NCBI RefSeq assembly: GCF_900141855.1
Contig: NZ_FQYU01000002.1
Location: 682,001 to 746,000 of the forward strand
Source of the DNA: Pseudozobellia thermophila
Lineage (GTDB): Bacteria > Bacteroidota > Bacteroidia > Flavobacteriales > Flavobacteriaceae
Direction of reading: 5' to 3'
Length of the DNA: 64,000 nt
The position numbers were made by a program, and so were the translations under genes. How positions within the stretch are numbered: position 1 is the first letter of the stretch; each line of letters opens with the position of its first letter. The notes beneath the pieces are model-generated. The model was not told where the DNA came from. It saw nothing but the letters and a program-made list of their open reading frames with translations, and searched no databases. Of the stretch, positions 24,742-64,000 are shown piece by piece.

Positions 24742-24798
24742 TTAAGTTGTGAGTGCCTGGTTGAGTTGGGGGCACCCGGTTAAGTTGTGAGTGCCCGA
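24742..24798 (-). repeat. Three tandem 19-bp repeats across the fucose dehydrogenase stop codon
   Basis: Units lie at 24742-24760, 24761-24779 and 24780-24798. The first and third are nearly identical (TTAAGTTGTGAGTGCC then TGG or CGA); the middle one is diverged (TTGAGTTGGGGGCACCCGG). The third unit contains the stop codon and last codons of the L-fucose dehydrogenase gene; the other two fill the spacer before fucP. This looks like a slippage duplication of the gene end that set the intergenic spacing. Confidence 0.75.
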
Positions 24799-25565: not shown

Positions 25566-25575
25566 TTTCCTCTAT

Positions 25576-26430
25576 TTATTGATATGCCTTTACATGTTGT
25601 TTTGAGCTGCCCAATCCCTCGATACCCAGCTCAACGACATCGCCGGCCTTAAGGTATTTTGGCGGGTCAAAGCCCAAGCCTACCCCTGAGGGTGTTCCGG
25701 TAGAAATAATATCCCCGGGCAATAAGGTCATAAACTGACTGATATAGCTGACCACTTCCTGAATGTTGAAGATAAAGTCGGAAGTGTTGCTGTCTTGAAG
25801 GGTCTCCCCGTTCAACTTGAGCCATAGGTCCAGGTTGTTCGGGTCCTCGATCTCGTCCGCCGTAGCGATAAACGGCCCTATAGGGGCGAAGGTATCACAT
25901 CCTTTTCCCTTGCACCATTGGCCTTCCCGCTCTATTTGAAAGGCGCGCTCGCTATAGTCGTTGTGCAGTACATAACCGGCGACATGGGCCAAAGCGTCTT
26001 TTTCCTCTACATAGGAGGCCTTTTTGCCGATAACGACGGCCAGCTCAACCTCCCAATCGGTCTTTTGGCTATTCTTGGGTATGACAAGGTCGTCATTGGG
26101 GCCGACAATGGCCGAGGTCGATTTAAAGAAGAGTACGGGTTCTTTCGGGATCGCCATACCGCTTTCTGCCGCGTGTTTGGCATAATTGAGACCTACACAG
26201 ACGATTTTGGACGGACGCGCCAAAGGGGGACCTAAACGTACATCGTTCGACACGACGGGGCAATTTTCCTGGTTCTTACCGAGCCATTCCTTTAAGCGGG
26301 CAATGCCATCGCCTCCAAAAAATTCCTCGGTGTAATCCGATATAAACTCCGAAACATCCAATCGGGTCCCGTTTTCCAATTGAACCCCGGGCTTTTCAGC
26401 ACCTGTACTTCCAAATCTGATTAACTTCAT
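25576..26430 (-). CDS. FAH-family 2,4-diketo-3-deoxy-L-fuconate hydrolase (likely)
   Basis: This 284-aa protein belongs to the fumarylacetoacetate hydrolase superfamily. The core (about 72-280) shows KIVCVGLNYAKHAAE, the metal-binding DWEVELAVVIGK (Glu127, Glu129), HNDYSER (Asp158) and the closing DIISTGTPSGVG. Family members cleave C-C bonds in beta-diketo acids. In fucose and rhamnose oxidation a protein of this type splits 2,4-diketo-3-deoxy-L-fuconate into pyruvate and L-lactate, and its place between L-fucose dehydrogenase and the second SDR supports that. FAH proteins are hard to assign by sequence alone, so the reaction is inferred from the neighbours. Confidence 0.8.
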   Translation of the reverse strand: MKLIRFGSTGAEKPGVQLENGTRLDVSEFISDYTEEFFGGDGIARLKEWLGKNQENCPVVSNDVRLGPPLARPSKIVCVGLNYAKHAAESGMAIPKEPVLFFKSTSAIVGPNDDLVIPKNSQKTDWEVELAVVIGKKASYVEEKDALAHVAGYVLHNDYSERAFQIEREGQWCKGKGCDTFAPIGPFIATADEIEDPNNLDLWLKLNGETLQDSNTSDFIFNIQEVVSYISQFMTLLPGDIISTGTPSGVGLGFDPPKYLKAGDVVELGIEGLGSSKQHVKAYQ

Positions 26431-26486
26431 ATATGTCTTTTATATTTTAATTCGCTTGTATGTTTATTTTTTGGGCCCCGGTTATT

Positions 26487-27263
26487 CTACGAGCCGTTTA
26501 AGTTAATAAATCCTCCGTCTATGGGAAAATTGCTTCCCGTAACAAAGGAGGCCTCATCCGAACAGAGGTAGACGGCCAAATTAGCCACCTCTTCCGGTTT
26601 GGCCATACGGCCGATGGGCTGGGTCTTCGACAGCTTTTCGAACATTTCCTTTTCCTTGCCGGGATAATTTTTACTTATAAACCCATCCACAAATGGCGTA
26701 TGTACCCGGGCCGGGGAAATGCAATTGCACCTGATACCGTCCGCCAAATAATCCTTGGCCACGGAATAGGTCATGGTCAGAACGGCCCCCTTGGTCATCG
26801 AGTAGGCAAACCTATCGTTGATCCCCACCGACGATGCGATCGAGGCCATATTGACGATTACCCCCTTGGTTTTCTTTAACGATGCGATACCGGCTTGCAT
26901 ACAATTATAGACTCCCTTGATATTCACATTGTACAGGCGGTCCAAGTCTTCCTCGGTACATTTTTCCAAATTTCCCACGTGGGCGATGCCGGCATTGTTG
27001 ATCAGGATGTCGATTGGCCTTTCAGCGGTTATCGCCGTAAAAGCGGCCTTCACCTCTTCCTGTACGGCCACATTGCATCCATAAGTAAATGCGCTACCCC
27101 CCATATCCTTTATATGGGCCGCGGTATCCTCTGCATTTTCCTCGCTCATTTCCAAGATGTGGACAACGGCACCTTGTTCGGCAAGGGCCAGGCTAATGGC
27201 CTTACCGATACCGCTACCTCCACCGGTAACCACTGCCTGTTTGTTATTTAAACTAAACTTCAT
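26487..27263 (-). CDS. 2-keto-3-deoxy-L-fuconate dehydrogenase (SDR family, likely)
   Basis: This 258-aa classical SDR has TGGGSGIG (13-20), NNAG (89-92), and an intact YxxxK (Tyr154, Lys158 in FAYSMTKGA) with GGFINLNGS at the C-terminus. It differs from the neighbouring L-fucose dehydrogenase, so it probably catalyses the other dehydrogenation of the route, 2-keto-3-deoxy-L-fuconate to the 2,4-diketo acid. It starts 6 bp after the L-fuconate dehydratase stop and precedes the FAH gene, the order expected for these steps. Sequence alone cannot exclude other hydroxy-acid substrates. Confidence 0.8.
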   Translation of the reverse strand: MKFSLNNKQAVVTGGGSGIGKAISLALAEQGAVVHILEMSEENAEDTAAHIKDMGGSAFTYGCNVAVQEEVKAAFTAITAERPIDILINNAGIAHVGNLEKCTEEDLDRLYNVNIKGVYNCMQAGIASLKKTKGVIVNMASIASSVGINDRFAYSMTKGAVLTMTYSVAKDYLADGIRCNCISPARVHTPFVDGFISKNYPGKEKEMFEKLSKTQPIGRMAKPEEVANLAVYLCSDEASFVTGSNFPIDGGFINLNGS

Positions 27264-27269
27264 AGCTAT

Positions 27270-28598
27270 TTACGATTGTTGTATCTCTAATTCCTTTTGC
27301 CAATAACTTCCATTGGGATAAGTATATTCCGCCAAAGATCCAGGTTTCATCGTTATGCTATAGCCTGGCATACTAGGTGGCATATAGGCCCCGTCCTTTA
27401 TGACCACCGGATCAAAAAAATGCTCATGCAAGTGGTCTACATATTCAATAATACGATTTTCCAGCGAACCGCTTATGGCAATATAGTCGATCATTGACAA
27501 ATGTTGTACATATTCGCAGAGTCCCACCCCACCGGCATGTGGACAAACGGGAATATTGAACTTTGCCGCCATGAGCAAGATGGCCAATATTTCATTGACG
27601 CCCCCTACCCTACAGCTATCGATCTGGCATATTCCTATGGCGTTGGCCTGCATCAATTGCTTGAACATTACCCTGTTCTGGCAGTGCTCGCCGGTAGCGA
27701 CCTTGATAGGCGCCACCGCCCTGGCGATCTTGGCATGGCCCAAAACATCATCGGGACTCGTTGGTTCCTCGATCCAATAGGGGTCGAACTTTTTCAGCTC
27801 GCCCATATTTTCGATGGCCTCATCAACATCCCATTTTTGGTTGGCATCCATCATCAACCTTAGATCGGGCCCTATTTCTTCGCGGATGATCGCGGCACGG
27901 CGCATATCGTCCTGCAAATCGGAGCCCACCTTGATCTTCATATGGTCGAATCCGGCCTCCTTCGCCTCCCTGCAAAGCCTGCGCATCTTTTCGTCGGAAT
28001 ACCCCAGCCAACCTGCGGAAGTGGTATAGGCCGGATAACCCGATTCTTTCAAACGGGCAATTCGTTCTTGCTTGGTACCGGCCTTTTCCCTTAACATGGC
28101 AAGTGCCTCGGCAGGAGTGATGGCATCGGTGATGTATGTAAAGTCGACGCACTTTACCAGCTCTTCGGGGCCCATATCGGCCAATAATTTCCACAAGGGC
28201 TTCCCCTCGGCCTTGGCGTACAGATCCCAAACGGCATTTACCATGGCACCCGTGGCCAAATGAATCACGCCCTTCTCGGGCCCCAACCATCGCAGTTGAC
28301 TATCGCCCGTAATCATCTTCCAAAAGGCACCCATGTCGGCGGTAAAGCTTTCAAGTGTCTTTCCCAAGACCAAGGGAGCCAACGATTGGATCGCGGCGGC
28401 ACACAGTTCATTGCCCCTACCAATGGTAAAGGTTAAACCGTGGCCTTCCCAACCGTCTTCCGAATCGGTCTTTAAGATCACATAGGCGGCTGAATAATCG
28501 GGATCGGGGTTCATCGCATCGGAACCGTCCAAGGATTTACTTGTAGGGAAACGGACGTCTTTTACCTCAACATCCGTAATCGTTATTTTTTTTGACAT
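27270..28598 (-). CDS. fucD: L-fuconate dehydratase
   Basis: This 442-aa enolase-superfamily enzyme removes water from L-fuconate to give 2-keto-3-deoxy-L-fuconate. I start at the MSKKITITD methionine; an in-frame ATG at 28616 would add MLIIEH, which has no counterpart in the family. Diagnostic stretches are VRFPTSKSLDGSDAMNPDPD, GLTFTIGRGNE and SQLRWLGPEKG, as in characterised FucD. Catalytic residues are present: Lys221/Lys223 (MKIKV), metal ligands Asp251 (MMDANQ), Glu277 (WIEEPTSPDD) and Glu304 (ATGEH), and His354 (CPHAGGVGL). It heads the fucose block; a copy of the shared promoter element lies 62 nt upstream. Confidence 0.95.
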   Translation of the reverse strand: MSKKITITDVEVKDVRFPTSKSLDGSDAMNPDPDYSAAYVILKTDSEDGWEGHGLTFTIGRGNELCAAAIQSLAPLVLGKTLESFTADMGAFWKMITGDSQLRWLGPEKGVIHLATGAMVNAVWDLYAKAEGKPLWKLLADMGPEELVKCVDFTYITDAITPAEALAMLREKAGTKQERIARLKESGYPAYTTSAGWLGYSDEKMRRLCREAKEAGFDHMKIKVGSDLQDDMRRAAIIREEIGPDLRLMMDANQKWDVDEAIENMGELKKFDPYWIEEPTSPDDVLGHAKIARAVAPIKVATGEHCQNRVMFKQLMQANAIGICQIDSCRVGGVNEILAILLMAAKFNIPVCPHAGGVGLCEYVQHLSMIDYIAISGSLENRIIEYVDHLHEHFFDPVVIKDGAYMPPSMPGYSITMKPGSLAEYTYPNGSYWQKELEIQQS

Positions 28599-28660
28599 AT
28601 GTTCTATAATTAACAAGGCGAAATTAAGACCCCGCTTTTTTTAAAGCCACTATATAATGT

Positions 28661-32265: not shown

Positions 32266-33771
32266 TTAATAACCCGGGTTCTGTACAAGGTTCACATTGT
32301 TGCGCAACTCGTCCGTTGGAATGGGAAACAACAATTCCCGTTCGGTAAGGGTCGGGCCATAGGCGAATTCGTGGCCCACAAAATCCTCAAAATCCCCGGT
32401 CGATACATTAAGGGCCTTTCGCAAGCGTACCATATCGAACCAGGTTACGTTCTCATAACTTAGTTCATGCCACTTCTCTTTCCAAACGGCTTCCCTAAAC
32501 TGGTCCTTGCCCAGTCCGGATAACTCAGGAAGTTCAGCCCGCGTCCTAATACTGTTTATCGCATTATAGGCTTCCGGTGTCGGCCCTGACACTTCGTTCG
32601 AGGCCTCGGCATAGATCAAAAGCACCTCGGCATATCGGATCAAATCCCAGTTCAGGTCACTACTCGCCGTTTCGAGGTTGGCCACAATATCAAAATGCTT
32701 GTACAAGAAATGCCCCCCTAGGACAATAGTATCGGTCCTGTCGAACTTTGAGGTGTACGTGGTGTAATAAAATTCCTTTTCGGCCACCCTCTTGTCGTCG
32801 GGGTCATAGGAGTTGATAAATTCCTGGTTGGCATATATGGCCCCCGTCTGTTCCGAATACGCCGAAATATTCATGTTATAGGGTATAATCAGGGGCTGCC
32901 AATTCGACGGATCGACAAAGGCCTCATACTGTACCATAAAAATGTTCTCGCCAATATTGTTTTTTTCGGGGTCGTGCAAATCTCCATAGGACGGAAACAA
33001 ATCGTATTCTCCCGAATCGATGACCTCCTTGGCCTTTTCCGCCGCTTTCTGGTAATATTCATCCCCTTTTTGCAAGGGATAGCCCGCCATGGTCAGGTAT
33101 ACGCTGGACAACAATGATTTTACGGCGCCCAGGGTAACCTTTCCAGTTGCATCGTTAAATGGCAGTCCGGAAGATTCAGCTTCGACAAGGTCCTCTACTA
33201 TCTGCGAATAAATGTTCTCTACCTTTGCCTGGGGCGCATACAGGTCTTCCGAACTTAGATCGATGGGATCGGTCAATAACGGAACGCTTCCAAATATCCT
33301 AACCAGGTTGTAATAATAGTAGGCCCTTAAAAAACGGGCTTCTCCCAAGAGTTGATTTTTTTCATTCGCATCCATCTCGATGCCCGGTATGTTCGCAATG
33401 GCCAAATTGGCATTGGCGATACCTTGGTAGCTACTATCCCAGTAGGCCTTGCCATAGGCGTTGTCGGAGGTATTGGTCAAATTGCGTATGATATTGCTAT
33501 TATCGGCCTGGCCCAGGTCGCTATCTGCCAACCCTGTGGCAAATTCGAGCATAAGCCACGGGCTTCCCCCGTAGGAGCCTCCACGTACGTCCCTAAGGCT
33601 TGAGTAGATGGAATATACGGCTGACTCCGCATGTTCGGCGGTCTTGAAATAACTATCTGCGGTAATGTTGGAGGGGTCGGCTTCTTCTAGAAAGTCGGAA
33701 CATCCTACGGCCATGATCATGGGAAAGGCCATCAACACTGGGTAAACTTTGGTTTTTATCAAATTTTTCAT
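32266..33771 (-). CDS. SusD-like glycan-binding lipoprotein (SusD3)
   Basis: This 501-aa lipoprotein (lipobox IMAVGC, Cys24, then SDFLEEADPSN) has the full SusD fold: tetratricopeptide-like helices (LGEARFLRAYYYYNLVRIFGSVPLL; VKSLLSSVYLTMAGYPLQKG) and the C-terminal signature (EKWHELSYENVTWFDMVRLRKAL; LFPIPTDELRNNVNLVQNPGY). It follows SusC3 by 16 bp. With the sulfatase and GH29-like genes downstream, this pair probably handles sulfated fuco-oligosaccharides. Confidence 0.95.
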   Translation of the reverse strand: MKNLIKTKVYPVLMAFPMIMAVGCSDFLEEADPSNITADSYFKTAEHAESAVYSIYSSLRDVRGGSYGGSPWLMLEFATGLADSDLGQADNSNIIRNLTNTSDNAYGKAYWDSSYQGIANANLAIANIPGIEMDANEKNQLLGEARFLRAYYYYNLVRIFGSVPLLTDPIDLSSEDLYAPQAKVENIYSQIVEDLVEAESSGLPFNDATGKVTLGAVKSLLSSVYLTMAGYPLQKGDEYYQKAAEKAKEVIDSGEYDLFPSYGDLHDPEKNNIGENIFMVQYEAFVDPSNWQPLIIPYNMNISAYSEQTGAIYANQEFINSYDPDDKRVAEKEFYYTTYTSKFDRTDTIVLGGHFLYKHFDIVANLETASSDLNWDLIRYAEVLLIYAEASNEVSGPTPEAYNAINSIRTRAELPELSGLGKDQFREAVWKEKWHELSYENVTWFDMVRLRKALNVSTGDFEDFVGHEFAYGPTLTERELLFPIPTDELRNNVNLVQNPGY

Positions 33772-33787
33772 GTTTGTCGTTTTTTGT

Positions 33788-36700
33788 TTAGAAAGTGGCG
33801 TTCAAGCCGATCATGAATACCCTGGGCTTTGGATATTGGTCAAAATTCACCTCACCTTGTCCGAAGGTGGTATCACTGGTCTGCACTTCCGGGTCATAGC
33901 CCTGATACTTGGTACTTACAAAAAAGTTCTGGGCCGATGTGTATATCTTAAGCCTGCTCAGCTTGAGTTTTTCGGCTATATCGGTAGAAAAATTATAGCT
34001 CAGCAATAGGTTTCTGCCCCTAATAAAAGATCCGTCCTGTATCATGTGCGAGGTATCCAAATTGTCATAGCCTGCAGACACGGGTCTCCATTGGGCGATC
34101 GGGGTATCCTGATTTTCAGGTGTCCATGCATCCAATACCGTGGCAAGGCTATTGGCTATACCCTGACGGTTTTCTTGCGGACGTGTAGTAATGTACATGA
34201 TATCGTTGCCGTATTGAAATTGCAGGTCTACCAACAACTCGAAGTTTTTATAACGGAACGTATTGATCAAACTCCCATAGCCATCGGGAATACCTTTACC
34301 TATAATTGTTCTATCCGCTTGGTTTATAACCCCGTCATTGTTCCTGTCCTCAATTTTAACATCGCCCGGCAGTCTAAAGTACTTTGCGGCCTCATCGGCC
34401 TCGTCGGTTCCCCATGTGCCTAAATGGACCAAGCCAAAGAAGGAACCGACGGGTTCACCTTCCCTAATAATGGTACGCCCCGAAAAGATATCGCTTCCTC
34501 CGGAAAGGGCAATTACCTCGTTCTTGTTGATCGCAATGTTGAAGTCGGTGCTCCAAGAAAAGTCGGTATTCACGATATTCTTGGTGGCCAAGGAAAACTC
34601 GATTCCCTTGTTTTCCATACTGCCAATGTTCCGAAACACGGAGGCATAACCACTGCTTGTAGGAACGGGCGAGTTCAGCAGCATGTCTTCGGTCAACTTA
34701 CGGTAAACATCGGCCTCGAATGCGATTCGTCCGTCAAACAGGCCTACTTCGATTCCGGCATCTACCTGCTTCGTTTTTTCCCATTTTAAATCGGGATTGG
34801 CCAGGCGGTCGATACCGATACCGTTTACGACGGCGTCATTGACCACGTAGGCATAGTTGCCCAACCCGGGCAATGCACCGTACGCCGGTATTTCAGAGTT
34901 ACCGGTTACCCCGTAACTGGCCCTTAGCTTAAGATTTGAAATCGTGGAGGATTCCTTCAGAAAATTTTCTTCCGAGACTTTCCACGCCAAGGCGGTTGAT
35001 GGAAAAAATGCATACCTGTTCGTTTCCCCGAATTTTGAAGACCCGTCAACACGGCCCGTAACCGTCAACAAATATTTGTTTTGCAGTCCGTAATTGATCC
35101 TTCCAAAATACGAATTCAGACCGTAGGCAAATGCGCTCGAGCTTGGGGTGCCCACTACGGACCCCGCTCCCAAATTGTTGAAACCAAAAAAATCGTCGGA
35201 AAAATTCTCGGCACGGGCACTGAAGCCGGTATTGTTTATATGTTGCCAAGAAAGGCCCAAAAGACCGGTAATCGAGTGTACATCGGCAATTTCCTTTGTA
35301 TAGGTAAGGTAGTTTTCAAATTGCCAGGAGGTATATTCGTTGGTGGCCCTGGTGGCATAGCCATTGGTGGCCGTGCCGATAAAGTTCAGTTCGCGCCCGG
35401 CATACTCATCGGTTTTTTGCTCTACGTTGTTTACACCTATGGAAGTTCTGAAATCCAGTCCCTTGGCCAGGGTGATGTTGGCAAAAATATTGCCGAGTAC
35501 GGTATTGGTACGTAAGTATTTTTTGTACTCCTCGCCGACCCGAACCGGATTGGGACCACCCTCCATTCCCGGATAATCGGCATTACTGGCCCAACTGCCA
35601 TCGGGATATTTGACCGGGATTATCGGAATGTTCTCGATCATATTCCTACCGACCCACGAATCGTGTATGATGCGTTCCTTTTGATTGTTATAACTGAGAC
35701 TACCGCCTACTTTGAGCCAATCCCTAATACTGGAATCGAAGACAAAACGGCCGGAATACCGCTTTAACCACGAATCCTTCATGATGCCCTCCTCGTCCAT
35801 GTATCCTAGAAAGGCACCGTAACTGCCTTTTTCGCCGCCCCCGGTAAAGGAAAGCTGATGGTTCTGGGTAAATGCCGCACGGGTTACCTCGTCTTGCCAG
35901 TCCGTATCGTACAGCGGGTTTCCGTCGGCATCGAACAGTCTTGGATCATTTCTTTTTAGGGTGGGATCGGTATACTTTCCATTGGCAAATCCTACCGCAT
36001 CGTATTTTTCGGCATTTTGATAGGCGACTTCCTCGATCATCAAAAATTCCGCTGAGTTTAGCACGTCGACCTTTTTAGCCAGGTTACCAAGACTGTAATA
36101 GCTGTCATAACTGATTCGCCCCCCTGTCTGGCTTCCCCTTTTGGTAGAGATCAAAACAACCCCGTTGGCTCCCCTCGAACCGTAGATTGCCGTGGCCGAG
36201 GCGTCTTTTAGCACTTCTATCGATTGGATATCGTTGGGATTGATGTAATCGATGGGCGAGCTATTGTTGGCCAATCCCGTGGAGACCAAGATAATGCCAT
36301 CGACCACGAACAAAGGGTCGTTGGAAAGACTAACCGACGAATTCCCCCTAATCCTAATGTTCGATTTCCCGCCCGGCCTACCGGAATTGATGGAAACACT
36401 TACACCTGGCATTTTACCCGACAAGGATTGCGTTAACGATGCCGCCGGACGCTCTTGAAGCTCATCTGCCGAGACAGAGCCCACGGCCCCGGTAAGGTCA
36501 CTTTTCTTCTGCGAACCGTAGCCTATGACCACCACCTCGTCCAAACTCGCAGCATCTTCCTCCATGGTAACATCGATAGTGCCCGACGTACCTACCGCAA
36601 TCGACTGCGTTTTCATTCCTATATACGAAAAGACCAGCACATCGCCACTACCCGCGGTAATGGTATAGTTTCCATCAAAGTCGGTCTGTGTTCCCGTCGT

Positions 36701-36934
36701 GGTACCGTCAAGCAGTACGTTCACCCCTGCCAAGGGTATTCCCGAACTATCCAGTACAGTACCCGTAATTTGCTGTTGCACATCGTAAAACCTTGCGGTT
36801 GGCGATTCCAGGGGAATGGTAGCCGCATGGGCCTGGAAAATAAACGTAGGTATAAGGAAGGCATAGAAGCACACCTTATACAGTTCCTTTGCTCCCAGTA
36901 CAAAGGAAGAAGTCTTGGTTTTGCGTTTTTTCAT
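33788..36934 (-). CDS. SusC-like TonB-dependent outer-membrane transporter (SusC3)
   Basis: This 1048-aa protein carries a longer N-terminus (MKKRKTKTSSFVLGAKELYK) before a hydrophobic signal (VCFYAFLIPTFIFQAHA), then the carboxypeptidase-regulatory-like domain (IPLAGVNVLLDGTTTGTQTDF), TonB box/plug (LDEVVVIGYGSQKKSDLTGAV; SNIRIRGNSSVSLSNDPLF) and the barrel ending in MIGLNATF. Its promoter region holds copy 2 of the shared 38-bp element, so it is probably co-regulated with the esterase-GH29 operon and the fucose-catabolic genes. Confidence 0.95.
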   Translation of the reverse strand: MKKRKTKTSSFVLGAKELYKVCFYAFLIPTFIFQAHAATIPLESPTARFYDVQQQITGTVLDSSGIPLAGVNVLLDGTTTGTQTDFDGNYTITAGSGDVLVFSYIGMKTQSIAVGTSGTIDVTMEEDAASLDEVVVIGYGSQKKSDLTGAVGSVSADELQERPAASLTQSLSGKMPGVSVSINSGRPGGKSNIRIRGNSSVSLSNDPLFVVDGIILVSTGLANNSSPIDYINPNDIQSIEVLKDASATAIYGSRGANGVVLISTKRGSQTGGRISYDSYYSLGNLAKKVDVLNSAEFLMIEEVAYQNAEKYDAVGFANGKYTDPTLKRNDPRLFDADGNPLYDTDWQDEVTRAAFTQNHQLSFTGGGEKGSYGAFLGYMDEEGIMKDSWLKRYSGRFVFDSSIRDWLKVGGSLSYNNQKERIIHDSWVGRNMIENIPIIPVKYPDGSWASNADYPGMEGGPNPVRVGEEYKKYLRTNTVLGNIFANITLAKGLDFRTSIGVNNVEQKTDEYAGRELNFIGTATNGYATRATNEYTSWQFENYLTYTKEIADVHSITGLLGLSWQHINNTGFSARAENFSDDFFGFNNLGAGSVVGTPSSSAFAYGLNSYFGRINYGLQNKYLLTVTGRVDGSSKFGETNRYAFFPSTALAWKVSEENFLKESSTISNLKLRASYGVTGNSEIPAYGALPGLGNYAYVVNDAVVNGIGIDRLANPDLKWEKTKQVDAGIEVGLFDGRIAFEADVYRKLTEDMLLNSPVPTSSGYASVFRNIGSMENKGIEFSLATKNIVNTDFSWSTDFNIAINKNEVIALSGGSDIFSGRTIIREGEPVGSFFGLVHLGTWGTDEADEAAKYFRLPGDVKIEDRNNDGVINQADRTIIGKGIPDGYGSLINTFRYKNFELLVDLQFQYGNDIMYITTRPQENRQGIANSLATVLDAWTPENQDTPIAQWRPVSAGYDNLDTSHMIQDGSFIRGRNLLLSYNFSTDIAEKLKLSRLKIYTSAQNFFVSTKYQGYDPEVQTSDTTFGQGEVNFDQYPKPRVFMIGLNATF

Positions 36935-44898: not shown

Positions 44899-47715
44899 TC
44901 AATCGATCCCAACCTTGAACGTTTTCTCCCTATAATTGCGCACCGCCTTTATTTGTAGTGTTTTTCCTTGGGCATTCCCGAGCAAGCGCTTCAAGTCGCC
45001 GGTATCGATTACCTCTTCCCCATTCACCGCTTGCACGACCCAACCGATCCCTAGGCCCGAAGCCTTCCACATACCTTTGGGGTCTTCATATATGGTCTTT
45101 ATAAAGCATCCCGTATTGTACCCGCCCGAAGCATCTATTAGGTCGGGGTCATCGGCCATATTGACAAATGCTGCCCCGTAAATTACGACCGCATCGTCTT
45201 TTTGCAATTCTTTTTGCCCCATCGAGCCTACATAACTGCCCGAAAGCAGGGTAGCGAGCCAGCTCGGGTATTCCAATTTGTCGACCCGGGTATACCTTAC
45301 CGAATTAACAAAACCCAAGCCATGGCCCTTCCCATCGAACGAACGGAATTTTAGGTCGGTAGACTTTTCGAATACCAAGGGTACCGTATACACCTTGGAA
45401 GCCACCGTAGGCTCCGTACCGTCGGTGGTATACCGGATACTGCCCGAACCGTCCATTCTTTTATCGGGAAGGAGCCTTACCTCGATTTCCTTTTCGAACT
45501 CCCTTGAAAAAGGTACGGCCTTGGTCATTTGATGGCCAAATTCGTCCATGGGAAAATTTTTAAAGCCCAGGTCAAGGGCCGGCGAACCCTCCCTTACCCT
45601 ATAATCGCCATTTTCGGGGTCTACGAACAAGGGGTCGGCCATTTTCGAATTGAGGTCGTAGCCCTCGGCACGCCATTGCCTTAGGTTCTTTTCCTTGATT
45701 ATCCTATCAGAGGTCGGGAAGTTTACGTTCCAATAAAGGTTATGATCGTAATGGTTGCTCCACTTGGCATCTTCGGGCAGTCGAATCGGCCTGATAAAAA
45801 TGTCGGTAGGGGCCTCCTTTCCGGGCACACTTCCCGAGATAACGAAAATATTCTGGTACACCTCATCCTCGGAAGCCTTGGGCCACACGTGCCAGCCCAG
45901 GGGCACGGCGCTTACACTGATATTGTTGAACACCTTTCGGAACATGCCATCGCGTAATTTTATGGTAGAGCCCAGGTTAAGGTTGTTGTATATCTCATAA
46001 AAACTGGATCCGTCGTCGAGATCGATCGTCCAGTTGCCCGCACTGATCGATTTTCTATAGTTGGCGATCCGGTTGTTCCTGACGATTACGGGATCCAAGG
46101 CATCCAATTTCACATATTCCTTTATAAAGTCGGTATCGGCACTGCCGCCGGCGCCCAGCCACTGGCGTTCGCGCCCCCAGGAGTTGAACGGACCGTGTTC
46201 GCCCGTTTCGCGAACCGTCTCCCAGATATCGTTGTACTCTATTAGATGGCCGCCCCAGGTGCCATCGTTAATACAGATACCCGCCCGGGGACAGTTGTAG
46301 ATGGTATTGTGCGCGACGGTTATTTTGTGGCTCATCGAAATATAAACTCCGGCAACCTGTTTTCCATAATCCCCAAAGTCGTGCATCATGTTATTTTCGA
46401 CAATACAGTTTTTAGGATAATTATCGGATTTAGGTCCGGGCCTTAAGTCCATATTCTTTCGCATTTCGTTCCAGTCCTTTCCGTATATCTCCCGGTCGTC
46501 CCAGGTTTGGTAAAAGCGAACGGCATCGAGTGAACCTACCAAGGCCACCGCACTTTCACCAAGGTGGTAAAAACGGCAATCGCTTACCGTATTGTTCCTG
46601 TTGTAAGCGCTCATAAAAACACCATTGCCCCCCAAAAACTCAAAGTTACAGTCGCTGATCGTACAGTTTTCGGCCCCTTCGAGAAATAGGGCCCCTCCTC
46701 TATGAATGGCCCAATCCCCTCTGGCCAAGGGTTCGTATGCCTCCATAAAGGTGGTTCTACTTTGTGTAAAATCGATGCCATTTATAGTAATATATTTTAC
46801 GGGATTCCTACTTGTTCCTTTAATTTGAATTAAATCTTTGGCCACAGGCACTTCGATAACCGCATTGTTCAAATCGACACCTTCTTCAGGGTAGTAATAC
46901 AGTAATTTTTTTTCTTCATCCAAGAACCACTCGCCGGCCACATTGAGTTCCTCGAAGATGTTCTCGATAAAGAACCACGAGGCATTCTTGCCCTTGCCCC
47001 CGATACCGTGAACCCTTTGCAATTGCCATCCGCCTTCGCCCAGAAAAATTTTGTTTTGTTCCTTATCGACCCCCTTGATGCGGTATTGCATGTTGCCCCA
47101 GTTATGGCTCTGAAAAGCATGAACGATGCCGGTCGAAGGCCGCTTCCAATCCTTATCCTTAAAATCTTCCGGTTTCAGCTGGATCCATTCGTCGTACCTG
47201 CGGTCGGTACCACCGGCGACTTGCAGGTAGCCCTTTCCTCCGCGTAGGGGGTTGTCGTAATCGTAATTGGGATAGCGGGCGCGCACCTGGCGCTTTCCGT
47301 TGACGAAGAGTTGGTCGAAGGATAGCTTCGGGGGAAGTTCGGCCACGTAGACGTCTTCGGTATGCCTTTTCCATTCAAGTCCTTCAAGTAATTTTGACCC
47401 CTTAATTTTGACCGTTGCTCCCGGAAAAGCGGAAATCGAGAGGGGAAATTCCCTTGTTCCGGAGTGCTCGGGTCCTATTACAAGGGTTTTTTCGAGGTAA
47501 TAATGTCCTTCGAGCAACCAAATGTTCACCTCTTCCCTGCCGGCGTAGGTTTTGCTTTCGGCGAGCGCCCTTTTCAAGGAATAAAAAGGAGCTTCCCTTG
47601 AACCTTCGGAAGCATCGTTGCCCAATGGGGAAACATAGATATCCATGGCCATAAGTGCTTGGCCCCACAACAGGGCAAATAAAAACAAACCGACCGATAC
47701 TCCTTTCCTAAACAT
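44899..47715 (-). CDS. Right-handed beta-helix protein with chitobiase-like and PDZ domains (GH141-like)
   Basis: Starting at the ATG at 47715 the protein is 938 aa with a good signal peptide (MFRKGVSVGLFLFALLWG, then QALMA); an upstream ATG at 47778 would overlap the GH172 gene and spoil the signal. The body (about 25-730) is a parallel beta-helix opening MDIYVSPLGNDASEGS with right-handed repeats (NCTISDCNFEFLGGNGVFM; NCIVENNMMHDFGD), like GH141, a family with an alpha-L-fucosidase and a xylanase. A chitobiase C-terminal-like domain (about 750-805, IRYTTDGTEPTVASKVY) and a C-terminal PDZ-like domain (about 865-938, GWVVQAVNGEEVIDTGDLKRLL) follow. Function is open; fucose context favours a glycosidase. 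Confidence 0.65.
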   Translation of the reverse strand: MFRKGVSVGLFLFALLWGQALMAMDIYVSPLGNDASEGSREAPFYSLKRALAESKTYAGREEVNIWLLEGHYYLEKTLVIGPEHSGTREFPLSISAFPGATVKIKGSKLLEGLEWKRHTEDVYVAELPPKLSFDQLFVNGKRQVRARYPNYDYDNPLRGGKGYLQVAGGTDRRYDEWIQLKPEDFKDKDWKRPSTGIVHAFQSHNWGNMQYRIKGVDKEQNKIFLGEGGWQLQRVHGIGGKGKNASWFFIENIFEELNVAGEWFLDEEKKLLYYYPEEGVDLNNAVIEVPVAKDLIQIKGTSRNPVKYITINGIDFTQSRTTFMEAYEPLARGDWAIHRGGALFLEGAENCTISDCNFEFLGGNGVFMSAYNRNNTVSDCRFYHLGESAVALVGSLDAVRFYQTWDDREIYGKDWNEMRKNMDLRPGPKSDNYPKNCIVENNMMHDFGDYGKQVAGVYISMSHKITVAHNTIYNCPRAGICINDGTWGGHLIEYNDIWETVRETGEHGPFNSWGRERQWLGAGGSADTDFIKEYVKLDALDPVIVRNNRIANYRKSISAGNWTIDLDDGSSFYEIYNNLNLGSTIKLRDGMFRKVFNNISVSAVPLGWHVWPKASEDEVYQNIFVISGSVPGKEAPTDIFIRPIRLPEDAKWSNHYDHNLYWNVNFPTSDRIIKEKNLRQWRAEGYDLNSKMADPLFVDPENGDYRVREGSPALDLGFKNFPMDEFGHQMTKAVPFSREFEKEIEVRLLPDKRMDGSGSIRYTTDGTEPTVASKVYTVPLVFEKSTDLKFRSFDGKGHGLGFVNSVRYTRVDKLEYPSWLATLLSGSYVGSMGQKELQKDDAVVIYGAAFVNMADDPDLIDASGGYNTGCFIKTIYEDPKGMWKASGLGIGWVVQAVNGEEVIDTGDLKRLLGNAQGKTLQIKAVRNYREKTFKVGID

Positions 47716-47728
47716 CCTGAATATTTTT

Positions 47729-49381
47729 TTATTTATTTTCCGATTGGGCATGCAAGCCCTTGGGCAGGGGCGGTACATTTAAAACCTCTTTTTCATCCGG
47801 AACCCGGTTCGAGGTGGTTTGACCATCCCCGTACCAGTAGACCCCGACACCGTAGCCCATTTCACAATCCGTCCAACTCCAAATTTCCATATCCAATTTC
47901 AACGATGTTTCGAAAGGCATAACATCCAAAGCGCGGGTCCTTGTTTCGGTACTATAGCCCGAAGTATTTTTTTCCTTGCTTTTTTTTCGGTTCAATTTAT
48001 TGTACACATAACTTCGGGGTTGGGCATGAAAGGGGTGCTCATAAAAATCGGTGCTTCTTCCTCCCCAGGAATAACCGTAATAATCTTCGGTACCGGTTCC
48101 AAAAAGGGATGGAAAATCCTCTCCATCAACCCATATTTTTTCATCGCCCTCGCCCCACCATCTTTCAACAGGGTTCATTACCGTTAGCGCATCCCCCACA
48201 TATACCCCACGGCCCTTAAGGGTAACGTAGTTCCAATCGGAAAACGGACGGGTGGGCACGGGATATTGCCCACGCCATGCCGCGTTGAAATACATGCTTT
48301 CGGCATCCCACTCCCATGTTCCCACGGTAGACCTTAAATCTACATGTACCGGTGCATCCCCTAAATTGAGTACGGATATTTTACCCGAATCCCGATAGGG
48401 CATAACCCATCTAGAGGTCATGGTACCCGCTTCGCTTACCGTTCCGTACCACCCTTGATACGGGTTCAACCCTATACCGCTACCAAAAAAATCGCCGATC
48501 GGGCACCACACCGTTGGCCTGCCATCGAATTCCATTTTCAGGACCACCGATCGGGTTACCCGGGGATTGTTATAATCGTCGAGTTTTATACTAAGCTCCC
48601 TGACCGCGCCATTTCCCTTGGGCAGTTCTACGGACCGTTCCTCCTTGGGACCGAGGCCCATAGCCAATGAGATTTGCTCCCCCCCTTGGGGCGATGGGGG
48701 ATCCAACAACAATTTTCCCACATTTCGTGCCAAGGGCAAGGCTTTGTTGAAATCATCCAGGGCAAAGGTTTTTACAGGGGTGCCTTCGTTGTAGGCCCGG
48801 TAGGTAAATTGATAAAAAAATGGCCTTGCCGTAGTGGTTATTTTGCACCTTTTGGCATACGGAATCGGAAAAAAGGATACCGCCGAACGCAGCGATTGGT
48901 GTGCCAAGGGATAGGGAATCAACCCCGTTCCATCCAACAAGCCGAGCATGTTGCCTTCCAAAACGGGCTCGGCACTTCCGTCTAAATAAATTTTAATTTG
49001 GATATCGGTATCGGGTTTATCCGGACTCAAAAAGGGCATCCAGGTACGCACGATCGCCCCCGGCCCCTCATGATCCATCAACACCCATTCCTTTTGTCCG
49101 TTTTTCTCCTCTATCCTAATGAAGTTATGGTCTTTATCTCCGCTGTTAAAATCCTTGTTCGTAAACCAACCCACAGAATCCGCAGGAGTTTTGGAGGCCC
49201 TATTATAGCTGCTTTCCTGTTTTAACCTAAAACCGGTTTTCGGGAAACGGGCAATGGCATCGCGATCGACCATGTCCTTCAACAGCGATTCTATGGACAC
49301 TACCCCATCTTCGGTTTGGGCAAAAGCCATACCGGCAGATGCCATAAAGACCAGGCTTAGGATGATTTCTACTGGTTTCAT
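47729..49381 (-). CDS. GH172 family (DUF2961) glycosidase
   Basis: This 550-aa secreted protein (signal about 1-21) has the DUF2961 double jelly roll that defines GH172: HEGPGAIVRTWMPF (104-117), IPYAKRCKITTTA, and the catalytic motif FGTGTEDYYGYSWGG with Glu432. Characterised GH172 enzymes act on alpha-D-arabinofuranosides or difructose anhydrides and form multimers. No arabinose or fructose genes are adjacent, so the furanose or other sugar it removes here is unknown. It lies between a sulfatase (37 bp upstream) and the beta-helix protein (13 bp downstream). Confidence 0.85.
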   Translation of the reverse strand: MKPVEIILSLVFMASAGMAFAQTEDGVVSIESLLKDMVDRDAIARFPKTGFRLKQESSYNRASKTPADSVGWFTNKDFNSGDKDHNFIRIEEKNGQKEWVLMDHEGPGAIVRTWMPFLSPDKPDTDIQIKIYLDGSAEPVLEGNMLGLLDGTGLIPYPLAHQSLRSAVSFFPIPYAKRCKITTTARPFFYQFTYRAYNEGTPVKTFALDDFNKALPLARNVGKLLLDPPSPQGGEQISLAMGLGPKEERSVELPKGNGAVRELSIKLDDYNNPRVTRSVVLKMEFDGRPTVWCPIGDFFGSGIGLNPYQGWYGTVSEAGTMTSRWVMPYRDSGKISVLNLGDAPVHVDLRSTVGTWEWDAESMYFNAAWRGQYPVPTRPFSDWNYVTLKGRGVYVGDALTVMNPVERWWGEGDEKIWVDGEDFPSLFGTGTEDYYGYSWGGRSTDFYEHPFHAQPRSYVYNKLNRKKSKEKNTSGYSTETRTRALDVMPFETSLKLDMEIWSWTDCEMGYGVGVYWYGDGQTTSNRVPDEKEVLNVPPLPKGLHAQSENK

Positions 49382-50930: not shown

Positions 50931-51698
50931 TTATCTGCCCATCCATCCGCCATCGACCAACATTACCGAACCGGTCATGTAGTCGGAAGCCGGGGAGGCC
51001 AAGAATACGATAGGGCCCTTAAAATCTTCGGGTTGGCCCCATCTACCGGCAGGAATCCGCTCCAAGATCGATTTGCTTCGGCCTTCGTCGTTTCGCAAAG
51101 CCTCGGTATTATCGGTAGCGATATATCCGGGCGCTATGGCATTTACCTGAACGCCTTTTGAGGCCCACTCGTTCGACAAGGCCATGGTCAACTGCCCGAT
51201 GGCCCCTTTTGAGGCCGCATAGCCGGGCACGGTAATTCCTCCTTGGAAAGTCAATAAAGAAGCCGTGAAAATAATCTTCCCGCTTCCTCTTTTAATCATT
51301 TCCTTGCCTATTTCCCTAGAAAGTATAAACTGGGCGTTTTGGTTTATCTCGATTACCTTGTCCCAATACGCATCGCTATGTTCGGCAGCGGGCTGCCTTA
51401 ATATCGTACCCGCGTTGTTGACCAGAATATCGATGGTCGGGTTCTCCGCCTTTACCTTTTCTATAAAGGCGTAAAGGGACTTTCGATCGCTAAAATCGCA
51501 TTGATAGGCCTTAAAGCTCTTATTCAATTCGGTGATCCGCTTTTCTATTTTAGAGCCCGAAAGCTCCAAGGATGCCGATACACCGATTATGTCGGCCCCT
51601 GCCTCGGCCAAAGCCTCGGCCATGGCAAAACCTATACCTCGTTTGCACCCCGTTACAAGTGCTGTTTTTCCCTCTAAACTAAACTTATCCAATATCAT
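50931..51698 (-). CDS. kduD: 2-dehydro-3-deoxy-D-gluconate 5-dehydrogenase
   Basis: This 255-aa SDR (TGCKRGIG, NNAG, Ser147, and YxxxK with Tyr160 and Lys164 in VPGYAASKGA) carries the KduD signature MILDKFSLEGKTALVTGCKRGIG and ends DGGWMGR. KduD reduces 2,5-diketo-3-deoxygluconate to 2-keto-3-deoxygluconate with NADH. Directly after kduI (29 bp), it completes the conversion of unsaturated uronate. Its presence shows that part of this glycan is cleaved by a polysaccharide lyase, not only by hydrolases. Confidence 0.94.
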   Translation of the reverse strand: MILDKFSLEGKTALVTGCKRGIGFAMAEALAEAGADIIGVSASLELSGSKIEKRITELNKSFKAYQCDFSDRKSLYAFIEKVKAENPTIDILVNNAGTILRQPAAEHSDAYWDKVIEINQNAQFILSREIGKEMIKRGSGKIIFTASLLTFQGGITVPGYAASKGAIGQLTMALSNEWASKGVQVNAIAPGYIATDNTEALRNDEGRSKSILERIPAGRWGQPEDFKGPIVFLASPASDYMTGSVMLVDGGWMGR

Positions 51699-51727
51699 GT
51701 TGTTATGCTTTGATTTAATATTTTATT

Positions 51728-52558
51728 TTAAAGTACATCCTGTAATGAAGCCCCGTCCATGTCGGTAAAGGCCTTGTTCTCTCCGGCCATGCCCCAAATA
51801 AAGCGGTAATTGCTGGTACCCGAACCGGCGTGAATGGACCATGGCGGGGATACTACGGCCTCGTAGTTTTTCATGGCGATATGACGCGTTTCATGGGGCT
51901 GGCCCATATAGTGCATTACCATATTATCGCCTGGTATATCAAAGTAAAAATAGACCTCCATTCTGCGTTCGTGGGTGTGTGGCGGAAAGGTGTTCCAAAC
52001 GCTACCTTTTTTCAGTTCGGTATAGCCCATGACCAACTGGCAACTTTGAATGCCGTCTTCGTGAATATACTGGTACAGCGTTCTTTCGTTACTGGTTTCA
52101 ACCGCACCGAGCTCTACCACATTGGCATCGGAACGCGTAGCTTTTTTCGTTGGGTATTCCTTATGTGCCGGGGCCGAATTCAAATAGAATTTTGCGGCAT
52201 CGGAACCATCCGAACTGGCAAACACCACTTCCTTTGAACCTTTGCCTACGTATAGGGCCTCCAAATTATCAAGCTCGAATACTTCGCCGTCTACGCTAAC
52301 CGTACCCTTGCCCCCAACGTTGATGATTCCCAATTCCCTTCGCTGTAAAAAGTAATCGGCCTTCAACTCGTCGTAGGTAGGCAATGAAAGGCTTTTTGAT
52401 TTTGGAAAGGCCGTACCGTAAATAAAGCGGTCGTAATGCGTATAGACCATGGTGACCTTGTCTTCGCCCATGAGGTCGGAACTGTGAAACTCCTTTCGTA
52501 TTCGCTGTGTATCATATTGTTTGGCATCCTCGGGATGCACGGCGTACTTAACTTCCAT
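51728..52558 (-). CDS. kduI: 5-dehydro-4-deoxy-D-glucuronate isomerase
   Basis: This 276-aa cupin matches KduI throughout (length 278 in Escherichia coli). The zinc ligands are in place: His194 and His196 (FPPHTHERRMEVYFYF), Glu201, and His243 (PPWSIHAGSG). It isomerises 4-deoxy-5-hexosulose uronate, the open form of unsaturated uronate, to 2,5-diketo-3-deoxygluconate for KduD. It lies between the MFS transporter (19 bp) and kduD (29 bp). Confidence 0.96.
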   Translation of the reverse strand: MEVKYAVHPEDAKQYDTQRIRKEFHSSDLMGEDKVTMVYTHYDRFIYGTAFPKSKSLSLPTYDELKADYFLQRRELGIINVGGKGTVSVDGEVFELDNLEALYVGKGSKEVVFASSDGSDAAKFYLNSAPAHKEYPTKKATRSDANVVELGAVETSNERTLYQYIHEDGIQSCQLVMGYTELKKGSVWNTFPPHTHERRMEVYFYFDIPGDNMVMHYMGQPHETRHIAMKNYEAVVSPPWSIHAGSGTSNYRFIWGMAGENKAFTDMDGASLQDVL

Positions 52559-61169: not shown

Positions 61170-62390
61170 TTAATGCCACGTAATTTTCGCTTTTCGCGCC
61201 TCCGTATCAACCCAAACACTTGCATGCTCAAATTCACGTGTAAACACCCATCCCTCCGGGTTTTCGCGTTTAAAGGCCCCCTTGGGTTTCCCTAGCGGTT
61301 TTCGCAATGCCGGGTAATCGACCAGGTTGCCATCCTCCAGGTTCCACCCCCAATTCCACTGAAAATACGAATATGGCTGGGCTCCAATAAGGTAACAGGC
61401 ATGGTAAAATTCTAATTGCTCCTTCGACCGTTGTTCTATACCGCCTGTTTTCGTAGCCCCCATGGTGATATCGTTTCGCCCCTTTCCCTTGGCGCCGAAA
61501 CGATAGATGGAGATCTTACCCGCCTTGGCAATGCGAACCATATCGTTCCATTCTTTGAGTAAGTTCTCCTTATTGGTAACCGTCGCGTTATAATGCTCGA
61601 ACATAAAGGCATCGCAATGGGGGAAGACCTCCTTGGTGCGGGCGGCATTATTACCGACCAATATTTTATCGGGTATCCCTTCCTTTAGCGCGGCCATCAT
61701 TTCCCCTTTGGCCCTTGCCAATTCGGCCAAGTCATCTACATGATAACCTGCCTTTTCGTCCACATTCATCCGGTCGACAAAAATACCATCGGCACCCGAA
61801 ATTTTAATGCCTTCAAGGGCCGAGGCCACCCACCATTTGCGAAATTCCGGGTTTAAGGCATCGAAATAGTACGAAAATGCCGGACCGTTTGTTTTTTCAA
61901 GCAACTTGCCGGTCTTGGGATCGATCGCCAAGAATTTGGCCAGTTCCTTGTTCTTGGCGATGCCCTTAGGGGTGAGGTCTTTATTGAACCGTGTAAAGGG
62001 CCATGCCACATAGGAATTGTAGTAGAACAGGACTTTAGCCTCCGGCTTTACCTTGTGAAATGCCTCCACTTCGTGCTTTGTTCCGAGCACGGCATCGCCG
62101 AGCGAGTTAAACGCATGCGATTTTTCGATACAGACAAAATCCGTTCTGTTGGCTATAAAATCAACCTCTTGGGGCTCCAAGACCCGGTCAATATCCCCAA
62201 AGTGATAGTACATTGGTGTAGTGTCCCAACTAAATTTTGGAAAATAGCCCTTTGCCTTAAAACTAGGACCATCACTTACAAACAGCGATGATGCTTCTTG
62301 GGCATATGAACCCCAGTTTAGTGCGATGAAACCACAAACGACACCTAAGGTTTTTGGGAACCGAATTCGAAATAGCGCTTTATTCTTCAT
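61170..62390 (-). CDS. Putative GHL15-type glycoside hydrolase
   Basis: This 406-aa secreted protein (signal about 1-30) forms a TIM barrel of the hypothetical glycosyl hydrolase family (PF14885, GHL15-like): YFPKFSWDTTPMYYHFG at the start, VLFYYNSYVAWPFTRF, the acidic strand ADGIFVDRMNVDEKAGY and CDAFMFEHYN, with candidate catalytic Asp and Glu. As far as I know no activity is established for the family. It is 10 bp after the heparinase-type lyase gene and so probably acts on products of that enzyme. Confidence 0.65.
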   Translation of the reverse strand: MKNKALFRIRFPKTLGVVCGFIALNWGSYAQEASSLFVSDGPSFKAKGYFPKFSWDTTPMYYHFGDIDRVLEPQEVDFIANRTDFVCIEKSHAFNSLGDAVLGTKHEVEAFHKVKPEAKVLFYYNSYVAWPFTRFNKDLTPKGIAKNKELAKFLAIDPKTGKLLEKTNGPAFSYYFDALNPEFRKWWVASALEGIKISGADGIFVDRMNVDEKAGYHVDDLAELARAKGEMMAALKEGIPDKILVGNNAARTKEVFPHCDAFMFEHYNATVTNKENLLKEWNDMVRIAKAGKISIYRFGAKGKGRNDITMGATKTGGIEQRSKEQLEFYHACYLIGAQPYSYFQWNWGWNLEDGNLVDYPALRKPLGKPKGAFKRENPEGWVFTREFEHASVWVDTEARKAKITWH

Positions 62391-62400
62391 TTTCCTTTAA

Positions 62401-64000
62401 TTATTCCAGTACAATTTTTCGCAATGCCCCGGCACTAAATTTCTTTTCTGAATTATTACGGCCTACGGTAACAGGCACTTCGTTGTGCAGGAGCAGCTCA
62501 CCGTTTTTATGTTCCAATACCATATTGCCTATATCGGAAGCCCTAATAGTATAGCCATTGGCCCTTACCTCTTTTCCGTTTCCGACAAAAACCACCCAAT
62601 CCCCGTTCTTTTCATAGGCCACCAAGGTATAGGTGGCATCGGTCGCCATGTCTTTATAATGGACCCTATTATGGTTGGCGGAAGAAAAGACCACATCTTC
62701 ACGGCCCGATTTATGGATTATGTTCAAGCCCACGAACTCCGGATTGCCGTTTTCATCGTCAAAGCTTGAAATCTTTTCGATGCTTTTTCCCTCACTGGAG
62801 GTAAAAGGTTCATACACCGCTACGAAGGGCTTTTCCCAAGCCGGACCATGCTGCCTGGCCGCCAAGGTCAGGTAAGGTGCCTTATCGACTTCGTAGGGCA
62901 GGCCGTGGTCACCCTTAAAGGCCTTGTTGGGCGGTGATTTGATGGCGAACACTTCACGGCCTTCGGTTCCCTTCATCCATAAATTCATAAAAACATCTTC
63001 CTTTTCATCGGGGAAATCGATTTTCCATTCTACTTGATAGTCTTCTTCATACCTCGCCGCTTTTTTGTCCCACATATAATCCAAGGCATACAAGTGTCCG
63101 CCCGCAAAGCCCATCTCTTCACTGGGCGTCAGCTCCAAGGGATTTCCGGCCGCATCCATGACTTTCATACCCTGCCCCAGGTTGTGGTAGTAATAATCGT
63201 GGAATTTATCGCCCTTCCGCTGCTTTTTGGAGCGGAACACATCGATGTAATACCCCGTTTCCGCACCCGTTTTTACAATGCTTACGAGGCGCGATTGGTC
63301 ACTGCGTGTCTCAGGTTCCAGAAAATAGACATCGGAATACGTGATGTTAGGGTAAAATCCTTCTTTCTGTCCCGATTTTGGATATTCTCCCATCAAGTCA
63401 AAAGCGTGGTAACTCAGCATTTCGGTATAGGACGACACCCCGTCTACCATCACTGTATTATGCGCAGGAAACTGTGAGTAATATTCCAAATAGATAGGCT
63501 GCAAATATCCTGCGCCCTTTCCGGGGTCGGCGCCTTGCACAAAGCCCTTGCCGTACAGTTCCAAATTGATGCCGTTGGCGTGCATATGGTTGCCCAGGGA
63601 TCCGTTTAGGGAGACCATCATACCGTGCTTACCCGTCCCCATGCGTTGTACGTGCCAACTGACATTGGGGGCGTTAAAGGTTTGGGTGATGTAATCTTTA
63701 ATATCGCCCTTGCCGTACTTGGCATTGAGTTCTACCGGCTTGCTGGCAAAGAAGGAGCTGATATCGGCCTTCGGCTTTCGGTTCGAATTCGATGTTTTGA
63801 CCTCCTCCGGGGCGAACAAGCGGTACATTTCGGTAAATTCCTTCTCCAGTTCCTTGTCCTTATTTTTCTGTGCCGTACGGATCATATCGCTAATGGCCTC
63901 CATTTTCAGTCCCCCGTAATAACTGTCGCCAAAAGCCACCGTTTGCCCATTGGGGAACAAATACTGCGGCAGCACCTTTACCGCCTTTTTCATAACCGGC
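62401..64000 (-). CDS. Heparinase II/III-family polysaccharide lyase, 5' end outside the window
   Basis: At least 530 codons of an open frame are present; it stays open to the right edge (GTT and CCG codons precede the ATG at 63991-63993), so the real start lies further right. The visible part has the end of an (alpha/alpha) toroid (LPQYLFPNGQTVAFGDSYYGG), then the heparinase II/III-type beta-sheet domain with SLGNHMHANGINLELYG, a likely catalytic His-Asn site, and PAHNTVMVDGVSSYTE, and a C-terminal beta domain. Such enzymes cleave uronate linkages by beta-elimination. With kduI/kduD close by, it is the likely source of unsaturated uronate. The exact PL family is not determined. Confidence 0.8.
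   Translation of the reverse strand, partial: PVMKKAVKVLPQYLFPNGQTVAFGDSYYGGLKMEAISDMIRTAQKNKDKELEKEFTEMYRLFAPEEVKTSNSNRKPKADISSFFASKPVELNAKYGKGDIKDYITQTFNAPNVSWHVQRMGTGKHGMMVSLNGSLGNHMHANGINLELYGKGFVQGADPGKGAGYLQPIYLEYYSQFPAHNTVMVDGVSSYTEMLSYHAFDLMGEYPKSGQKEGFYPNITYSDVYFLEPETRSDQSRLVSIVKTGAETGYYIDVFRSKKQRKGDKFHDYYYHNLGQGMKVMDAAGNPLELTPSEEMGFAGGHLYALDYMWDKKAARYEEDYQVEWKIDFPDEKEDVFMNLWMKGTEGREVFAIKSPPNKAFKGDHGLPYEVDKAPYLTLAARQHGPAWEKPFVAVYEPFTSSEGKSIEKISSFDDENGNPEFVGLNIIHKSGREDVVFSSANHNRVHYKDMATDATYTLVAYEKNGDWVVFVGNGKEVRANGYTIRASDIGNMVLEHKNGELLLHNEVPVTVGRNNSEKKFSAGALRKIVLE

Follow-up and report, generated by a model that had tools for sequence, protein, structure and literature searches.

In the window analysed here, a stretch of 64,000 nucleotides of the Pseudozobellia thermophila genome, a minus-strand gene (44899..47715) encodes a protein in which a GH141-like beta-helix is followed by a chitobiase C-terminal-like domain and then by a tail that, in profile searches and predicted models, is a PDZ fold. 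This architecture is conserved in 12 genomes (the focal protein and 11 orthologues, named group A), and a further 17 relatives carry a PDZ domain without the chitobiase-like domain (named group B). We propose that the focal protein is a GH141-like hydrolase which its PDZ domain docks to the C-terminus of a partner, a proposal whose chances, taken as a whole, we put a little short of even.

Gene start and domain architecture

The longest open reading frame at this position runs on the minus strand from 44899 to 47778 and has 959 codons. An alignment of the 12 group-A proteins shows that the orthologue starts agree with a start at Met22 (47715), the one chosen in an earlier reading made from the letters of this DNA alone (the sequence-only reading), and the first ATG is disfavoured because it would run into the DUF2961 gene upstream, whose end is at 47729. 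The gene as given above therefore rests on the reading frame, Pfam matches and the orthologue alignment. The parts of the protein described next are given in coordinates of this same minus strand. Residues 22-44 (47647..47715) form a putative signal peptide without a lipobox Cys, recognised by inspection of the sequence and its orthologues rather than by a signal-peptide program, and the sequence suggests a periplasmic location. A group-B relative in the same genome (L089:6691-9117) has a lipobox-like signal (LSCG) and no PDZ loop glycine, whereas the focal signal peptide is plain.

The enzyme part, residues 45-750 (45529..47646), is assigned by Pfam and by structure and sequence matches to a GH141-like right-handed beta-helix (Beta_helix, E 7.5e-16) with the GH141_M insertion, which scores 30.8 bits, above its cut-off of 27. 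It is followed at about residues 760-834 (45277..45501) by a chitobiase/beta-hexosaminidase C-terminal-like domain (CHB_HEX_C_1 / Fn3_assoc), matched by Pfam at residues 779-818 (E 2.8e-11; 43.6 bits, above the cut-off of 22) and visible as strands in the models. A linker, residues 835-857 (45208..45276), was delimited from the orthologue alignment and the model; it carries a conserved motif, YPSWLxTLxxG, in which a few group-A rows have H for Y or N for S, and residues 836-861 fall below pLDDT 50 in the full-chain model. The chain ends in the HtrA-type PDZ domain, residues 858-959 (44902..45207), identified by profile, predicted model and fold matches. Its putative carboxylate-binding loop is the IYGA of residues 866-869 (45172..45183), placed by alignment; we take this to be the loop by analogy with known PDZ domains. 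Pfam, the fold model and the orthologue alignment all bear out the domain order that the sequence-only reading had proposed. That reading had also called the order unusual: the order is real, but it is no one-off, since 12 genomes have it and group B shows PDZ tails again.

The C-terminal tail has a predicted PDZ fold

The Pfam PDZ_2 profile matches the whole focal protein with E 0.014 and 16.1 bits, and the focal tail alone with 20.3 bits, both below the cut-off of 27; with E values up to 1 admitted, 8 of 11 group-A tails match the same profile. Since these scores fall short, profile and fold were both examined. A profile built from group-A tails (11 of 12) and searched against the PDB gave HtrA-type proteases as leading matches (best E 4.7e-5), with non-HtrA chains appearing only from about E 0.4 except for the PDZ protein LRRC1 at 0.01. 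For the fold comparison, residues 740-959 were modelled with 18 sequences as input (mean pLDDT 75). Residues 119-220 of this model, which correspond to 858-959 of the protein, superpose on the first PDZ domain of DegQ with Z 14.0 and an rmsd of 1.8 A over 96 aligned residues. The best 50 fold matches of the tail model are all HtrA/Deg-type proteins or MamP, which are generally known to bear PDZ domains. In Foldseek the isolated HtrA PDZ 7l71 aligns over 98 columns with an rmsd of 2.2 A and a target TM of 0.72, alignments extending past the PDZ, with rmsd of 13-21 A, being set aside. The two-domain tail model has a pTM of only 0.42, and the orientation of the PDZ relative to the chitobiase-like domain is without a confident prediction.

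The sequence-only reading had named, as the finding that would speak against it, a profile search in which the last 75 residues were not a PDZ fold. In view of the profile search and the superposition on DegQ PDZ1 this did not occur, and we conclude that the C-terminal tail is, as modelled, a PDZ fold. The extent needed correction: the domain has about 100 residues, and the last 75 leave out the first PDZ strand and the carboxylate loop. A chance resemblance would fit the focal score under the Pfam cut-off, but it would have to account for the closeness of the DegQ superposition, the uniformity of the 50 listed fold matches, the HtrA-type proteases at the head of the profile matches and the group-B relative of the same genome (L002), in which PDZ_2 reaches 43.8 bits and clears the cut-off of 27; we regard it as highly improbable. 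The tail is like the PDZ domains of DegP, DegQ and HtrA in fold, in topology and in the loop Gly. It differs from them in that theirs are borne by a protease and the focal one by a glycan enzyme, with a Trp replacing the GD aspartate in group A.

PDZ-bearing relatives form one clade

The 11 orthologues are 59-65% identical to the focal protein, and all 12 group-A proteins align through the helix and the chitobiase-like domain and to the end of the PDZ. Their hosts span four named Bacteroidota families: Carboxylicivirga, Arcticibacter, Winogradskyella (five species), Arenibacter and Flavobacterium, plus one Flavobacteriaceae and one Saprospiraceae MAG. Group-B proteins have 785-851 residues and are 34-42% identical to the focal protein (blastp); they share with it the GH141-like helix and the PDZ, and differ in lacking the chitobiase-like domain and in keeping the canonical GD. 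The focal genome has a group-B gene (G000:C20:751021-753039) on the strand of the focal gene, 21 kb upstream of it; the group-B relative L002 matches GH141_M with 22.4 bits, below the cut-off of 27.

A tree was calculated from 45 of 51 helix regions, six more distant relatives (E below 1e-20, no PDZ-profile match) being left out. Group A (12 proteins) and group B (17 proteins) are each supported at 100/100 and their union at 96/86, each forming one side of a branch, so that by this tree the PDZ-bearing relatives form one clade; the program gave a long-branch warning that includes L034 and two group-B rows. Of the 30 close relatives that the tree contains, 29 were given a PDZ label. The exception is L034, a near relative in which Pfam finds no PDZ and which falls just outside the two groups. 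The HMM behind these labels had been trained on 26 of the same 29 tails, and therefore a Pfam scan serves as the independent count: PDZ_2 at E up to 0.01 is present in 17 of the 38 scanned relatives outside group A, a number equal to the size of group B, with L002, L004, L012 and L015 confirmed by name and the rest of the 17 as a count. In 14 of the 38 scanned GH141 relatives an L-rhamnose mutarotase family domain (rhaM, Pfam) is fused in the chain; these 14 are among the more distant relatives, L019 and L041-L059, with chains about 830-860 aa long.

Groups A and B tend to share hosts. A group-B protein is present in 9 of the 11 other group-A genomes, the two without it being MAGs, so that with the focal genome included both groups occur together in 10 of 12; for matches outside the loci that were read, the PDZ is presumed from a match reaching position 800-808 of the 808-residue query. 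Group B without group A was found in four relatives (G002, G013, G017, G031), and six more genomes from the class show the same. In wider samples, all from one phylum (Bacteroidota), the focal protein is the only full-length group-A protein among 149 relatives and 395 phylum genomes. Matches to the group-A tail occur in 26 of the 395, the focal genome included; the matched places apart from the focal gene, likewise 26 in number, are open reading frames of 197-538 aa, taken here as a set.

The beta-helix is homologous to a GH141 fucosidase

The leading fold match of the beta-helix is BT_1002, an alpha-L-fucosidase and the founding GH141 enzyme (PDB 5mqp). In the full-chain model (mean pLDDT 66, pTM 0.66), BT_1002 superposes with Z 41.1 and an rmsd of 3.6 A over 478 aligned residues at 25% identity, the next match having Z 29.1, and its profile match to the focal protein has E 2.9e-37. 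The focal helix is thus homologous to BT_1002. Of the 624 residues in the 5mqp chain, the alignment to the helix takes up 19-616, which leaves no room for a tail of chitobiase-like and PDZ domains. The top PDB sequence match is 9rx2, a 'Parallel beta-helix repeat protein' of 717 residues (profile E 2.4e-48); the match includes the segment just before the chitobiase-like domain, but the 9rx2 chain stops before that domain and the PDZ, its last matched residue being 713 of 717. A GH120 xylosidase was considered as nearest kin and dropped, as only the N-terminal stretch matches (E 8.6e-9). For the catalytic half, residues 440-640, the best PDB match in the profile search is no better than E 0.14.

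According to PMC12786026 and PMC5593877, the catalytic residues of BT_1002 are D523 and D564. We aligned the focal protein with 19 relatives and the BT_1002 segment. D564 corresponds to D588 (46015..46017, in IDLDDGSS), an Asp in every aligned row, and D523 to E527 (46198..46200), a position occupied by Glu in the group-A rows (four) and by Asp in every other row, six of group B among them. Both catalytic positions therefore carry carboxylates, with one Asp-to-Glu change. A local phmmer pairing of D523 with Gln474 was discarded after the multiple alignment because the column of residue 527 holds Asp or Glu throughout, in the focal protein as in all 19 relatives and BT_1002. The comparison of GH141 features was made with BT_1002 alone: the two share the beta-helix fold, the family's GH141_M insertion and the paired carboxylates, and the focal protein adds CHB_HEX_C_1 and a PDZ and has Glu for Asp at D523. 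Other GH141 enzymes are the endo-fucanases Wf141_1 to Wf141_4, which act on sulfated fucans according to PMC12786026, and Xyn141E, which, as described in PMC5593877, carries CBM6 and a dockerin instead of the chitobiase-like domain and the PDZ. The conserved PDZ also sets apart a GH141-like branch, with Glu for one catalytic Asp, as a target for assays of activity on sulfated fucans.

A search of the open literature, which leaves most subscription journals outside, returned no description of GH141 with a PDZ or of a PDZ on a polysaccharide-utilisation enzyme; a paper on a CAZyme library mentions PDZ solely within a reference. Automated annotation already labels a relative on a Persicobacter plasmid (NZ_AP025297), apparently of the group-B kind, as 'PDZ domain-containing protein'.

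The locus suggests a sulfated fucose-containing substrate

The focal gene lies in a locus of glycan-utilisation genes. Directly upstream, and probably in the same operon, is the DUF2961 gene (47729..49381, minus strand, Pfam), whose product we take to be of GH172 type. Also on the minus strand, the locus annotation gives a SusC/SusD pair at 32266..36934 (SusC 33788-36934, SusD 32266-33771), Pfam identifies sulfatases at 30350, 37322, 38780, 49419, 56022 and 57711, GH29-type proteins at 40444 and 28808, and KduI and SDR genes at 50931-52558, and there is an AraC regulator. Family matches identify MR_MLE, SDR and FAA-hydrolase genes at 24780-28616, a set that presumably fits a pathway for fucose or rhamnose without phosphorylation. 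GH29, GH97, GH88 and a further SusC lie outside the window. Relatives of the sulfatases are present in 10 of the 11 orthologue loci; none is seen in L009, a contig of 5.3 kb. Taken together, the sulfatases, the GH29 proteins, the SusC/SusD pair and the fucose-type pathway suggest a sulfated, fucose-rich substrate, and from these gene families a sulfated fucose-containing glycan is likely; the host bacterium probably feeds on sulfated glycans.

The KduI and SDR genes, with their KduD-like member, and the GH88 gene beyond the window (L089) would also suit a locus that targets a uronate-rich glycan, in which the beta-helix would be a lyase or epimerase acting on uronic acid, and alginate epimerases and PL6 lyases are indeed among the fold matches. 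These enzymes, at Z 29.1 or less, stand far below BT_1002, and the carboxylates kept at both BT_1002 catalytic positions and the GH141_M score above cut-off also argue against this reading, which we judge improbable. The preferred reading is a putative GH141-like hydrolase.

Some features of the locus are recorded as observations. A DUF2961 gene 72% identical to the focal one is found near the orthologue of Flavobacterium sp. UMI-01 (L014); none was seen in the examined flanks of the other ten orthologues. A protein of 926 aa in this locus (L089:401-3181, reaching into the window at 62401-64000) has no Pfam match at E 0.001, and a hybrid two-component regulator of 1344 aa (4709-8743) lies next to another SusC/SusD set, which is accompanied by GH115 and GH92.

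Conservation within the PDZ and the docking proposal

The usual picture of periplasmic glycan enzymes in Bacteroidota is one of free diffusion. A conserved tail in related enzymes suggests that these ones work docked to a partner. In the proposed mechanism, SusC/SusD would import sulfated fucose-rich oligosaccharides, which the beta-helix would cleave with the carboxylates E527 and D588, CHB_HEX_C_1 would be an accessory beta-sandwich, and the PDZ, on its flexible linker, would hold another periplasmic protein by its free C-terminus, bringing the enzyme alongside that protein. The docking step, the most tentative of these, is proposed because of the PDZ fold and the loop glycine; the conservation of this glycine and the low-confidence linker before the PDZ are compatible with it. 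The Glu at the D523 position in group A, the focal PDZ score below the Pfam cut-off and the low confidence in the relative orientation of the domains count against the proposal as a whole. Docking in particular is weakened by the modest conservation of the tail, by the losses of the GD aspartate and the loop glycine, and by the fruitless search for a partner tail, all described below.

To compare PDZ residues we counted 8 of 12 group-A rows and 13 of 17 group-B rows, leaving out four near-identical rows of each. The loop glycine, Gly868, is present in 8 of 8 group-A rows and in 11 of 13 group-B rows, the two without it being L002, from the focal genome, and L017. Gly885 and Gly890 are invariant in both groups, and R947 is found in seven of the eight group-A rows and all 13 of group B. 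Residue 913 is Trp throughout group A (8/8), whereas all 13 group-B rows have the Asp of the usual PDZ 'GD'. With the GD lost in group A and the loop glycine in two group-B rows, some of these proteins may bind peptides less well or no longer at all. On average, the 11 orthologues are 40% identical to the focal protein at residues 885-959 and 39% identical in the chitobiase-like domain, against 77% at 300-650. Within the group-A tail, the block DPDLIDAxGGYxxGC(Y/F)I at 877-893 is better conserved than the remainder. In the tail model this segment consists of a short helix and the first part of a strand, presumably near the place where HtrA PDZs bind their ligands, and it may be a specialised interface. 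Residue 891, at the start of this PDZ strand, is Cys in all eight group-A rows, and all 13 rows of group B have Val or Ile there.

Several of these observations would suit a purely structural PDZ, one that caps the end of the beta-helix or self-associates and binds no foreign C-terminus, which is the main rival to docking and, in our view, the less likely of the two. The tail is conserved well below the helix, its strongest group-A conservation is in the 877-893 segment and not in the loop alone, GD or the loop Gly is missing in the rows just described, and the search for partner tails (below) was without success. Also, only 39-47 residues separate the last helix motif from the PDZ loop in 14 group-B tails. 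In the 12 group-A proteins, by contrast, this distance is 123-129 residues, and the chitobiase-like domain and floppy linker set the helix and the PDZ apart, so that capping of the helix in the same way is unlikely. The invariance of the loop Gly in group A, and the existence of a near relative without a PDZ (L034), also argue against a structural role.

A broader form of docking, in which the enzymes of groups A and B, found together in 10 of the 12 group-A genomes, use their PDZs to bind the same partner by its C-terminus and thereby build an assembly line for sulfated fucans in the periplasm, is conceivable, but we think it unlikely. For docking in general, a PDZ conserved on an enzyme clade would give a way of tracking down assemblies of periplasmic enzymes, and the small isolated domain, used as bait, makes the question of assembly testable.

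Candidate partners encoded with group-A genes

The C-terminal tails of the neighbouring gene products were listed, and among these co-encoded proteins none has a convincing conserved hydrophobic C-terminus. The sequence-only reading had suggested a SusC-type protein as docking partner, which finds no support here: the SusC C-termini end like ordinary beta-barrel strands, and such strands would be buried after folding. The sole recurrent neighbour with a conserved tail is a GHL15 protein (61170..62390, minus strand, identified by locus comparison), which ends in W-(H/K/N). As a PDZ partner it was set aside, its last 12 residues ranking 75 of 395 windows, which is unexceptional. GHL15 is found near 7 of the 11 orthologues at identities of at least 24%, and near 6 of the 11 above 50%. 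Among the 149 related genomes it occurs in just two, both with PDZ-bearing GH141-like proteins; GHL15, partner or not, therefore shares a locus type with these genes.
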